DNA of 64,000 nt from Armatimonadota bacterium (GTDB lineage: Bacteria > Armatimonadota > Fervidibacteria > Fervidibacterales > Thermosaccharophagaceae), in the NCBI GenBank assembly GCA_025062195.1, contig JANXAS010000002.1:1-64000 (forward strand). Direction: 5' to 3'. The translations under genes were made by a program, and so were the position numbers. This document shows positions 47,210-51,965 of this stretch, piece after piece (position 1 is the stretch's first letter; every line of letters begins with the position of its first letter). The notes beneath the pieces were generated by a model, which was given only the letters and a program-made list of their open reading frames with translations, was not told the DNA's origin and searched no databases.

Positions 47210-50200
47210 ATGCGGACTCAGCACGATAAGCGTGAAAGCCGCAAAGGCATTGCGGATGAGGGTGTAAGGCACATAGCCTTTACAGCGTTCATTGGCATAG
47301 CTCTTCTGCTGCGCTGGTTCAACATAGTTCAGAGCGTTTTTGGGATTGACTTTGCTGCAATTATAGCTGCGGTCGGGGGATACAAGTTCTTCTACGGCAC
47401 AATTTATGAGCTTTTGTTTGAGAGGCGCATCGCAGTTGATGCGGCTGTGGCGGTGGCATCAGCGGCAGCGCTTTATGTTGGAGAATACTTTGCCGCTGCT
47501 GAAGTCATACTCATCATGCTCATCGGTGAGGCGCTTGAGCACTATGCTGTTGGGAGAACAAGGACTGCCCTCAGCGAACTCGCAAAAGCTATCCCTTCAA
47601 TTGCTCACCTGGTTAAAGGCGATGAAGTGGTTGATGTCACAGTTGATGAGATACAAATAGGTGATATCGTGCTCGTGAAGCCGGGCGAACGAATACCAGT
47701 TGATGGGACGGTGATTGATGGCAGTTCAAGTGTTGATGAAAGCACTATAACTGGGGAGCCACTCCCATCGGATAAATCCGCCGGTGAGCGCGTATACGCT
47801 GGGACGGTCAATCAGGCTGGCATTCTCTATGTGCGTGCCGATGCAGTTGGAAATCAGACGATCGTTGCCAAGATAATGCGAATGGTGGAAGAAGCTCAAG
47901 AGCGCAAAGCCAGCATTGAGCGTGCCGCTGACAAGTATGCGCGCTGGTTCCTGCCAGCCGTAATGGTTGCAGCTGCTGCCACATTCATTTTGAGCGGTGA
48001 TTTGATGCGTTCGGTAGCCGTGCTTATCATCGCGTGCCCGTGTGCGCTTGTCCTTTCAACACCGACTGCGATCATCTCAGCCATAGGCAGACTGGCAAGG
48101 GATGGCGTCCTTGTAAAAAGCGGGGCTGCAGTTGAGGGGCTTGGAAAAGTTAACTGCGTCATCTTTGACAAGACCGGCACCCTTACGATTGGCTCACCGG
48201 TGCTTACGGACATTGTTGCAGCTGATGCGTTTGATGATTTGGCGGTATTGTCATTTGCGGCATCAGTTGAGCTTGTAAGTGAACACACACTCGGACGGCT
48301 AATAGTTGAGGCAGCAAGGGGCAAAGGCGCAGTTATTTCCCATCCGGCGGATGTGCAGGTTTATCCCGGGATGGGCATCAGGGGAGTTGTAGCGGGGAAA
48401 GTTGTATCCGTCGGAAACCGCAAATTGCTTTCGGCTTTGAGCATAACCCCAACTGGCAGGCTTGAGGACGAGTGGAGACACTTGGAATCAGCCGGAAAGA
48501 CAGTTGTGGCTGTAGCTGTTGACGAGGTTGTTGTTGGATTGCTCGCCTTCTCCGACAAGCCTCGCCCTCAAGCATCCAGCGCAATTGAAATGTTGCGAAT
48601 GCTCGGGATAGCAAAGATCGGCATGCTCACAGGGGACACAAACGCCGCTGCAAGAACGGTAGCTGCACAGCTTGGCATAACTGATATCCATTCCGAGTTG
48701 CTCCCCGATGAGAAGGTTGAGCGCATAAGGCAATTGCAATCTCAAGGGCTATATGTGGCGATGGTTGGTGACGGAATAAATGATGCTCCGGCGCTCGCCG
48801 CTGCACATGTTGGCGTTGCAATGGGCGGTATTGGGACAGATCTGACTGCTGAAGCTGGTGACATAGTCGTCTTAACAGACGACCTGACTAAGGTGCCGCT
48901 CGCAGTTGAGCTCGGTAGGGCAGCGCTCCGAAAGATACATCAAAACATAGCCGGCTTTGCCATCGGGTTTAACTCAGCAGCTGTATTGCTTGCCGGCTTC
49001 GGGTATATACCGCCAGTTTGGGCTGCTGTAGTTCACCAGGTTAGCTCGCTTGCGGTCGTGTGCAATTCGCTTACGCTCTTATCAAAGCGCCGCTTTGAGT
49101 TATCGCCTTGGCTTGGCAGGATGGCATCGTTCTTGAGAACGGCTGCAGAAGGATTGCAGTGGGAGAACATAAGTGAATTCATCGCCCGAAACAGCAGAGC
49201 AGCAAACCGGATTGCCATATTGGCACTAATCATTGGTTACTTGCTCTCCGGCTTTTTTGTCGTTCGCGCCAACGAACGCGCCGTTGTTTTTCGCTTCGGC
49301 AAGCTTGTTAGGGAAGTTGCTCCGGGATTGCATTATCGTATTCCATCGCCCTTTGAGAGGGTGATAAAAGTTGACGCTCTTAGCAGGCGCAGGCTTGAGG
49401 TTGGTTTCAGGAGCAAACCGCAAACTGCAGGGGATGAACCGGTTGTCTATGAATGGGCATTCAAGCATCAAATAGCTGGCTACGAGCGCCGTCCCGAGGA
49501 AGGGTTGGTTATTACGGGGGACGAAAATATCATTGAGCTGAACATGATCTTGCACTACAGCATTAGCGATGCCACAGCGTTTTTGCTGCGCTGTGAATCG
49601 CCGGAGGCAATACTGCTTCCCCTCTCCGAAGCAGCCCTTCGCAGCGTGCTCTCTCGCTGTGACATGTATGCGCCGTTGGTTGGCAGGAGAAAACAAATTG
49701 AAACGAAGTTGATGCACAATTTGAGAAGGGATTTGATGCGCTATGGCATAGGCATAACTGTGCACAGCGTCAAGCTGCAGGATGTTCACCCGCCGCTTGA
49801 AGCGGATGTTGTAGATGCATTTCACGAGGTGGCGAGAGCGCTTGAAGCCAAAGCGCAGCTTATCAATGAAGCCGAAGCTTACAGAAATGAGAGGCTGCCA
49901 GAAGCGCGCGGAGAAGCCGCATCGCAATTTCACTCCGCAATTGCCTTCGGTGTTGATAGGACAAAGAGGGCTGAAGGTGAAGCTTCAAGGTTTGTGAGCG
50001 TAGCTTCGCAGTATAAAAAGGCGAAAGAAATCCACAGGATGCGCTTATATTGGGAGGCGCTTGAGGCGGCACTGCCCAACTTGAAGAAATATATTGTGGC
50101 GACAGATAAAGCTGGCTCTCAGCGAATCATTTTCTTTCCGCCAAACACGGGCGTAGCCGTTGAAAGCGCTTCGCAGCAAATGAAGGAAGCAGTAGTTATC

Positions 50201-50260
50201 CCGATGCTTGAGGAATTGGAACACGCACCGCCGCAGGGTGGACAAAAGGGGGCGAGGTGA
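47210..50260 (+). CDS. P1B-type heavy-metal ATPase fused to HflK
   Basis: A 1016-residue fusion. Residues 1-650 are a complete P1B ATPase: eight predicted helices, TGEPLPSDK actuator loop, CPC at 276-278 in the transport helix, DKTGT with Asp320 as phosphorylated residue, and [10 protein letters not shown]. No N-terminal metal-binding domain is present. The last transport helix has HQVSS, so the metal is not clear. From about 664 a ninth helix starts an HflK domain: [37 protein letters not shown] and [19 protein letters not shown]. HflK with HflC forms a cage around FtsH protease. The fusion is continuous, without stop or frameshift. hflC follows 7 bases later. Function, perhaps metal-dependent control of membrane proteolysis, is inference. 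Confidence 0.93.
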
Positions 50261-50267
50261 GTATGGT

Positions 50268-51194
50268 ATGACTTTCCGCCATCTCATTTTTGCAGTTCTG
50301 ATTCTGGCGCTCTTGATGCTGCTTAAGTCGGTCATGTTCACGCTTGACGAGAGAGAGGTCGCCATAGTGACAAGATTTGGCAAGCCTGTGCGAAGGGTCA
50401 TCTCAGCAGGGTTGCACTTTAAATCTCCAGTTGATGTGGTGGTGCGTTTTGACAGGAGGTTGCAGTTGACCGAAATACCGGCTCGCGAGTTGCTAACGCA
50501 GGACAAAAAGAGCTTGGTCGTTGAGACTTTTGTGTGCTGGTATGTGTATGACCCAAAGCGCTTCCTTGAAACGCTCGGGACAATGCAGGCAGTTCCAATA
50601 AGGCTTGAGGATATAGTGGTCTCGGAAGTAGCGACAGCATTTGGAAAGCGGATGCTCTCAAGCATACTTGTGGCTGACTTTGGTGCATCGGTGTTGGATG
50701 AAATCGGGAAAGAGGTGCTGAGAAGATGCCGTGAGCGCATACGAAATGAGTATGGCATTCCCGGCGACCCTAAAGCCGACCCGATAAAGCTTGTTGATGT
50801 GCGCATAAGAAGGATCAACTTCCCCGAGCCGACGAAGCAAAGCGTTTACGAACGAATGAAGGCGGAGAGGCAGCGTCAAGCAAAGCAGTATAGGGCTGAG
50901 GGGAAAGAGCAAGCGATGAAGATTCGCAGCCAAACGGACAAGGAGGTGGCGCGCATACTCGCTGAAGCATACAAGCGTGCTGAGCAGATTAAAGGTGAGG
51001 CTGAAGCGCAGGCAATGCGCATCTACGCCGATGCATACAAACGGGATCCAGAGTTCTATCGCTTTCTGCGCACTCTTGAAGCTTATAAGAAGGTGCTGAA
51101 TGACAAGACGACAGTCATACTTTCAGCCGACTCAGAGTTGATGAAGTTGCTAACACACGGTCGTGAGACAAAAATCAAAGATGAACGGAGGTGA
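50268..51194 (+). CDS. hflC: Protease modulator HflC (SPFH/band-7 protein)
   Basis: A 308-residue HflC. An N-terminal membrane helix (about 5-25) is followed by the SPFH domain (LDEREVAIVTRFGKPV, SAGLHFKSP) and the long helical part with KQYRAEGKEQAMKIRSQTD and FYRFLRTLEAY, typical of HflC. It partners HflK in the complex around FtsH. The start at 50268 has GAGGTGAG 6 bases upstream. It follows the ATPase-HflK fusion by 7 bases, so the two are translationally linked, and its stop overlaps the ribosome site of the next gene. Confidence 0.95.
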   Translation: MTFRHLIFAVLILALLMLLKSVMFTLDEREVAIVTRFGKPVRRVISAGLHFKSPVDVVVRFDRRLQLTEIPARELLTQDKKSLVVETFVCWYVYDPKRFLETLGTMQAVPIRLEDIVVSEVATAFGKRMLSSILVADFGASVLDEIGKEVLRRCRERIRNEYGIPGDPKADPIKLVDVRIRRINFPEPTKQSVYERMKAERQRQAKQYRAEGKEQAMKIRSQTDKEVARILAEAYKRAEQIKGEAEAQAMRIYADAYKRDPEFYRFLRTLEAYKKVLNDKTTVILSADSELMKLLTHGRETKIKDERR

Positions 51195-51200
51195 ACACCT

Positions 51201-51965
51201 ATAAAGCGAAGGGAATTTCTCATGCTGCCGATAGGTATTAGCATATGCGAACTTTTGAAGGGCTGCGGCGGTTCGCCAGGCAGCCTGCAAGGTGAACATC
51301 CCTTTAATATGGAACCTGACATCATGTTGATGGGCGACGAAGTCGAAATGGCTGAGCAGTTGCAGGATAGTTACGGAAGGCTTAAAGAGATTGCCGATGA
51401 CCCCGACAGGCAACTTAGAATCGGATTTGATGATGGCGGTCAGATGGAAATTTTGACGATGCATTTTTGTGAGCCTAAAAAGGGAGTCGCAAATTATAGG
51501 CACCTGAGAGTTGTTAAGGAATCTACCGGTGAGGCAGTTAGGCTGGTATGGGGTTGGGATGGGATTAAGCCGGCGATACAATTCGTTGATGATTATGGCA
51601 GGCTGCTCACCATCAACGGCACAAAGATGGATTTCAAAATCACAGATGCCAGTGGCAGGCTACCCAGTAGGAGTGTTGATTGGCTTTCGCTCGGCGTTAA
51701 ATGGATAGCGGTCGGATTCGCCATATGGCTGGGAGCACAGGTGGCAAGGCTTATAGTGTCGGCAATTGCCTTCCTTGCATTCAATGCTATGGTTATTGGG
51801 GCATTGATGATGGCGGTCGGAATCATAGTGCCAATATTGGAGCTGACAGGCTGGACCTTTGAGGATGTCAAGTCGTTCATAGGGCGCATGGTTGAGGAGC
51901 TCGTCAATGTCCTGCGTGAGGGCGCTGAGTTTATGTCTCAGATGCTTGCGCAGCTGGCGACATAG
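51201..51965 (+). CDS. Unknown membrane protein, probable ATA start
   Basis: A 254-residue protein I do not recognise. Its best ribosome site, GGAGGTGA (51187-51194, overlapping the hflC stop), points to ATA at 51201, 6 bases away, not to the first ATG at 51222, 27 bases away. From ATA the protein would start (M)KRREFLMLPIGIS, like the Tat-type leaders elsewhere in the window. The N-terminal half is polar with EQLQDSYGRLKEIADDP, and the C-terminal half holds two or three hydrophobic helices (about 165-220) then a charged amphipathic tail. It sits directly behind hflC, so it may belong to the same membrane complex. Confidence 0.6.
   Translation: MKRREFLMLPIGISICELLKGCGGSPGSLQGEHPFNMEPDIMLMGDEVEMAEQLQDSYGRLKEIADDPDRQLRIGFDDGGQMEILTMHFCEPKKGVANYRHLRVVKESTGEAVRLVWGWDGIKPAIQFVDDYGRLLTINGTKMDFKITDASGRLPSRSVDWLSLGVKWIAVGFAIWLGAQVARLIVSAIAFLAFNAMVIGALMMAVGIIVPILELTGWTFEDVKSFIGRMVEELVNVLREGAEFMSQMLAQLAT

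Follow-up and report, generated by a model that had tools for sequence, protein, structure and literature searches.

Metal exporters of three families fused to HflK in two bacterial phyla suggest a dedicated HflK-HflC scaffold for metal efflux

HflK and HflC are usually treated as partners of the FtsH protease, and the function of most SPFH rings is an open question. In the window (the whole stretch of 64,000 nucleotides of an Armatimonadota genome that was analysed), a metal pump appears to be joined to HflK in a single gene, which raises the question of whether the fusion is real and, if so, what an SPFH ring would do with an exporter. The earlier note had described a complete P1B ATPase running into a complete HflK in one frame, and both the frame and the family profiles bear this out. 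The gene (47210-50260; this and all window features below are on the plus strand) encodes 1016 amino acids with no internal stop. Residues 77-623 (47438-49078) score 583.7 bits against TIGR01525, the model of heavy-metal P-type ATPases (cut-off 346.25), and residues 682-969 (49253-50116), comprising the SPFH domain and coiled coil, match the HflK equivalog TIGR01933 with 199.6 bits (cut-off 159.4). The Pfam matches along the protein are, in order, E1-E2_ATPase, Hydrolase and Band_7.

The ATPase part carries TGEP at residue 181, the CPC metal-binding motif of M6 at residue 276 (48035-48043), the DKTGT phosphorylation motif at residue 320 (48167-48181) and the GDGINDAP hinge motif at residue 520 (48767-48796). 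Its last helix (TM8) contains HQVSS at residue 609 (49034-49048), the local version of an H(Q/E)xx(S/A/G) motif conserved across the fusions, and two extra hydrophobic segments lie near its N-terminus (residues 22-61). The catalytic core with CPC, DKTGT and GDGxNDAP is common to the fusion and to ATPases of the ZntA/CopA type, from which the fusion differs by its C-terminal HflK, its last-helix motif and its N-terminus, where no metal-binding domain was detected. The window ATPase scores above the cut-offs of TIGR01525, TIGR01512 (Cd; 474.6 bits) and TIGR01511 (Cu; 460.3 bits) alike, and HQVSS points to no single subtype either. A linker of about 40 residues (49079-49201) leads from the pump to the HflK transmembrane helix (about residues 665-686; 49202-49267). 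The HflK part aligns with residues 83-352 of E. coli HflK in structure 7vhp, from the membrane helix through the SPFH domain to the coiled coil. It has one N-terminal membrane helix followed by an SPFH domain and coiled coil, which are predicted to lie on the periplasmic side.

As the earlier note had stated, hflC follows after 7 bases: its ATG lies at 50268, the fusion stop codon ends at 50260, and the product of 308 amino acids (50268-51194) matches TIGR01932 with 207.8 bits (cut-off 134.4). Right after hflC lies a gene for a 247-amino-acid predicted membrane protein without a Pfam match (51222-51965), which was not found in the sister cassettes searched. In nearly all sister genomes the order is exporter::HflK, hflC and a second, unfused hflK. 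The window genome has no second hflK behind hflC; one is located on another contig, C122 (L044 1318-2337), so that all three parts of the cassette are present in this genome. The earlier note named a second stand-alone ATPase/HflK pair as a sign of an assembly artefact. A stand-alone HflK does exist, but the C122 protein is a paralogue and not a copy. It is only 40% identical to the fused HflK and takes a different position in the tree, among the second HflKs of sister cassettes, and we therefore rejected the idea of a duplicate assembly of the fused gene. Its nearest neighbour in the tree is the second HflK of G251, a weak pairing (82/50), and the fused HflK of G251 is also the nearest to the fused HflK of the window. 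The displaced gene has an unexpected neighbourhood, about 40 bases behind cas2 and cas6 (L044 52-2337).

Another explanation is that chance or misassembly brought two neighbouring genes together although they share no function, and an in-frame ATG within the linker (49121, residue 638) lends it some support. This ATG is, however, not conserved in the alignment of fusions, and the same architecture recurs in 14 other assemblies with diverged sequences, the HflK parts among the search matches being 31-43% identical. The P1B::HflK fusion is present in 14 Armatimonadota genomes including that of the window, and in the planctomycete G451. It is complete in G001, G008, G013, G031, G053, G062, G226, G250, G251 and G259; in G004, G055 and G276 it is cut by a contig end, yet the junction is continuous. 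The P1B motifs are retained in every complete copy. We conclude that the fusion is genuine, as the earlier note supposed, and reject an assembly artefact or chance junction; together with the joining of three unrelated exporter types at the same place, described below, these observations make a neutral fusion or artefact extremely improbable.

When 291 genomes from the phylum of the window were scanned with the HflK profile, 18 scored above the cut-off. A prepilin signature indicates that this phylum is Armatimonadota. All 18 carry their confident HflK in an exporter cassette, counting G275, in which the contig stops before the fused gene. The comparison spans two phyla only, the second being represented by 392 Planctomycetota genomes taken around the genome of L047. 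The P-ATPase of L047 itself, from Phycisphaerales, proved to be an ordinary unfused enzyme with no HflK nearby, and two long frames were excluded as fusions, L092, a stomatin-like protein whose N-terminus is noise, and L138, whose N-terminus is noise as well. Among the best 5000 records of plasmid-borne P-ATPases none spans 80% of the fusion, and viral contigs gave no relative.

The P1B ATPase is not the only exporter joined to HflK at this position. In 11 Planctomycetota genomes the cassette begins with a Cu/Zn permease of the SO_0444 family, the representative (L132 6097-8235) matching NF033936 with 389.3 bits against a cut-off of 300. Pfam was run on four of the 11 permeases, each of which matches ArsP_1; the other seven were assigned by evident sequence similarity. 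CDF transporters are fused to HflK in three further planctomycete cassettes (G330, G460 and G615) and, in degenerate form, in a fourth from Armatimonadota (G031). The CDF of G330 matches TIGR01297 with 120.3 bits (cut-off 82.35), and the planctomycete copies match Pfam Cation_efflux at 4e-33 to 4e-28, compared with 1.7e-8 for the degenerate copy. The paired HxxxD zinc-site motifs of TM2 and TM5 are intact in three of the four (G330, G460 and G615). The N-terminal domains of these planctomycete fusions thus pass the NCBIfam cut-offs of the SO_0444 and CDF families, whose models stop before the HflK part, and we know of no member of either family with a C-terminal HflK. Because three unrelated exporters are fused at the same HflK position in two phyla, an unrecognised scaffold for metal efflux is suggested. 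Histidine-rich tracts occur at the N-terminus of a cassette ATPase and in a loop of permease fusions (L040 12516-14645, L131 5099-7315 and L126 1545-3719).

A second type of cassette in Armatimonadota begins with an HflK that carries another membrane domain; hflC, hflK and a P1B ATPase gene of its own come next. It is present in G031, G062, G257, G258 and G262, with cut copies in G053 and G259, and in G031 the membrane domain is the degenerate CDF. In Planctomycetota, fusions of a Pfam-unmatched membrane domain to HflK occur in G317, G510 and G341, while the recognised parts in G342 are a second HflK and a P1B gene only. The Pfam-unmatched domain is about 300 residues long, and each fusion (L085 4070-5950, L086 8381-10261, L087 5149-7026, L088 5656-7653, L133 4294-6288, L140 1347-3635 and L142 3987-5924) has a separate P1B ATPase gene nearby. 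Profile comparison of this domain with CDF gave a probability of 18% only; it may represent a novel family of transporters or adaptors.

In the SPFH tree, built from 99 domains, the HflKs fused to P1B ATPases, permeases and CDFs fall into one group (94/95, just under the strict support threshold), and ordinary planctomycete HflKs form a separate group (100/100). Second HflKs fall in further groups, and the HflKs fused to the Pfam-unmatched domain stand apart from the other fused ones. Several planctomycetes, such as G349, G310, G394 and G460, have an ordinary HflK in addition to the cassette. The CDF label appears at three places in the tree: one is basal, one (G031) adjoins the permeases, and one (G330) lies among the P1B fusions in a group supported by 100/99. 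On the well-supported branches, at least three changes are required for the CDF label alone. The simplest reading of the tree is that there was one old scaffold, onto which different exporters would have been exchanged.

A ZIP zinc-transporter gene lies directly upstream in 7 of the 11 SO_0444 permease cassettes. In G257 and G258 the P1B gene is followed by one for ZnuA, and in G460 and G615 the CDF cassette is followed by a P1B gene that encodes a heavy-metal-associated (HMA) domain. The recurring neighbours are metal transporters and not proteases, and FtsH is absent among the genes identified in the cassettes.

These neighbours bear on the possibility that the exporter is tethered to HflK for its own removal, by ring-bound FtsH at low metal. 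In E. coli, FtsH sits within HflK/C, which influences how it reaches its membrane substrates (PMC12048511), and the window genome does encode one FtsH, a single gene on another contig. Such FtsH-coupled turnover is nevertheless unlikely in our judgement, since the identified cassette genes include no FtsH, the zinc-transporter neighbours indicate transport, and a confident HflK occurs in so few genomes of the phylum (18 of 291), always within the cassette. Because all the HflK-bearing genomes have it there, HflK seems to belong with the exporter and not with general control of FtsH. The earlier note had proposed both that the pump is carried in an HflK/HflC ring and that metal transport is coupled to FtsH quality control. 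The first part is strongly favoured by a fusion conserved across families and phyla, by HflC and a second HflK alongside, and by the preserved SPFH domain and coiled coil; the second finds no such support, the lone FtsH gene lying on another contig, no FtsH being seen among the identified cassette genes and the recurring neighbours being metal transporters.

Proteins of the P1B ATPase, CDF and SO_0444 families span the membrane with an even number of helices, and the catalytic domains of P-type ATPases are cytoplasmic; a crude hydropathy scan agrees only roughly with the even number. Because of this even number, the C-terminus of each exporter should be cytoplasmic and meet the start of HflK there, and the fused HflK would therefore be oriented as usual, its SPFH domain being periplasmic.

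We consider it fairly probable that the cassettes encode a dedicated HflK-HflC scaffold carrying exchangeable metal exporters, a 'metal efflux platform'. The C-terminus of the pump would join HflK where it begins in the cytoplasm, the helix of HflK would cross the membrane, and the SPFH domain would assemble in the periplasm with HflC and the unfused second HflK. Assembly of these three proteins into a ring or complex is predicted from homology, and metal export is the presumed direction of transport. A dedicated SPFH ring could in this way hold several exporter units in one membrane patch as a covalent platform, with clustering of the exporters as the likely benefit. The exporter itself, be it a P1B ATPase, an SO_0444 Cu/Zn permease or a CDF, would be a swappable module on a common HflK/HflC base.

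Alternatively, the periplasmic dome of HflK/C may cover the exit side of the exporter, so that metal would enter a closed space, to be stored, returned by ZIP or passed to partners. The release side of the exporter is the side of the SPFH dome, ZIP, ZnuA and PPIase genes lie beside some cassettes, and the chambers made by E. coli HflK/C are closed or nautilus-like (PMC12048511). The E. coli chamber can, however, be open on one side, and an enclosed compartment presupposes that the fused exporters sit inside the ring and that small ions are retained; we regard it as rather improbable. A modular form of this idea, in which three unrelated exporter families in a dedicated HflK/HflC dome pump into a periplasmic chamber and ZIP or other transporters complete the circuit, appears to us slightly more doubtful still. 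The PPIase genes, of the PPIC type, lie directly upstream of CDF::HflK in two loci (L136 3924-6026, assigned by similarity, and L137 9452-11506, assigned by Pfam).

For the scaffold with exchangeable exporters, the best functional analogue is PacL1-CtpC of mycobacteria, in which a P1B zinc exporter is clustered by a scaffold into 'metal efflux platforms' for zinc resistance (PMC9374683). As in that system, the cassettes would concentrate a P1B ATPase in a scaffolded membrane assembly. Unlike HflK in the cassettes, PacL (DUF1490) is a small stand-alone scaffold protein that is neither SPFH nor fused, and PacL1-CtpC foci exclude flotillin (PMC9374683). Pfam found no DUF1490 in the window's fusion, in HflC (Band_7 only) or in the next gene (no family). 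The E. coli HflK-HflC-FtsH complex (7vhp, 7wi3 and 9cz1) is alike over the HflK membrane helix, SPFH domain and coiled coil, and an hflC partner follows there too, but the cytoplasmic N-terminus of E. coli HflK is short and carries no transporter, where the cassettes instead have an exporter and a second HflK.

HflK and HflC belong to the periplasm-oriented SPFH3a/b subfamily (Hinderhofer et al. 2009, PMC2636767). That survey covers 1486 prokaryotic SPFH proteins, and none of the words ATPase, transporter, P-type and heavy metal occurs in its main text (PMC2636767). Full-text search of mostly open-access papers found no published HflK-ArsP, SPFH-P-type ATPase or similar fusion; automated annotation of such architectures may exist in protein databases. 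The parts, exporters and scaffold, are known, while for their combination and its recurrent modular design we found no description. Evolution has joined a ring subunit to metal exporters and swapped the exporters while keeping the ring genes, which would be direct evidence at the genetic level that a particular task in transport can fall to an SPFH ring. The fusion is also a ready-made natural construct whose metal tolerance could serve as a readout of ring function.

Two further genes were seen beside P1B cassettes. A gene for a protein of 910-1000 amino acids with a weak DUF3604 match lies directly upstream of several P1B::HflK genes (L035 2509-5472, L037 3230-6232, L041 8508-11246 and L082 2149-4929). 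A small protein ending in LIPYGT, one member of which has a weak match to DUF4878, is often encoded after the second hflK (L080 7603-8211 and 12 other loci).
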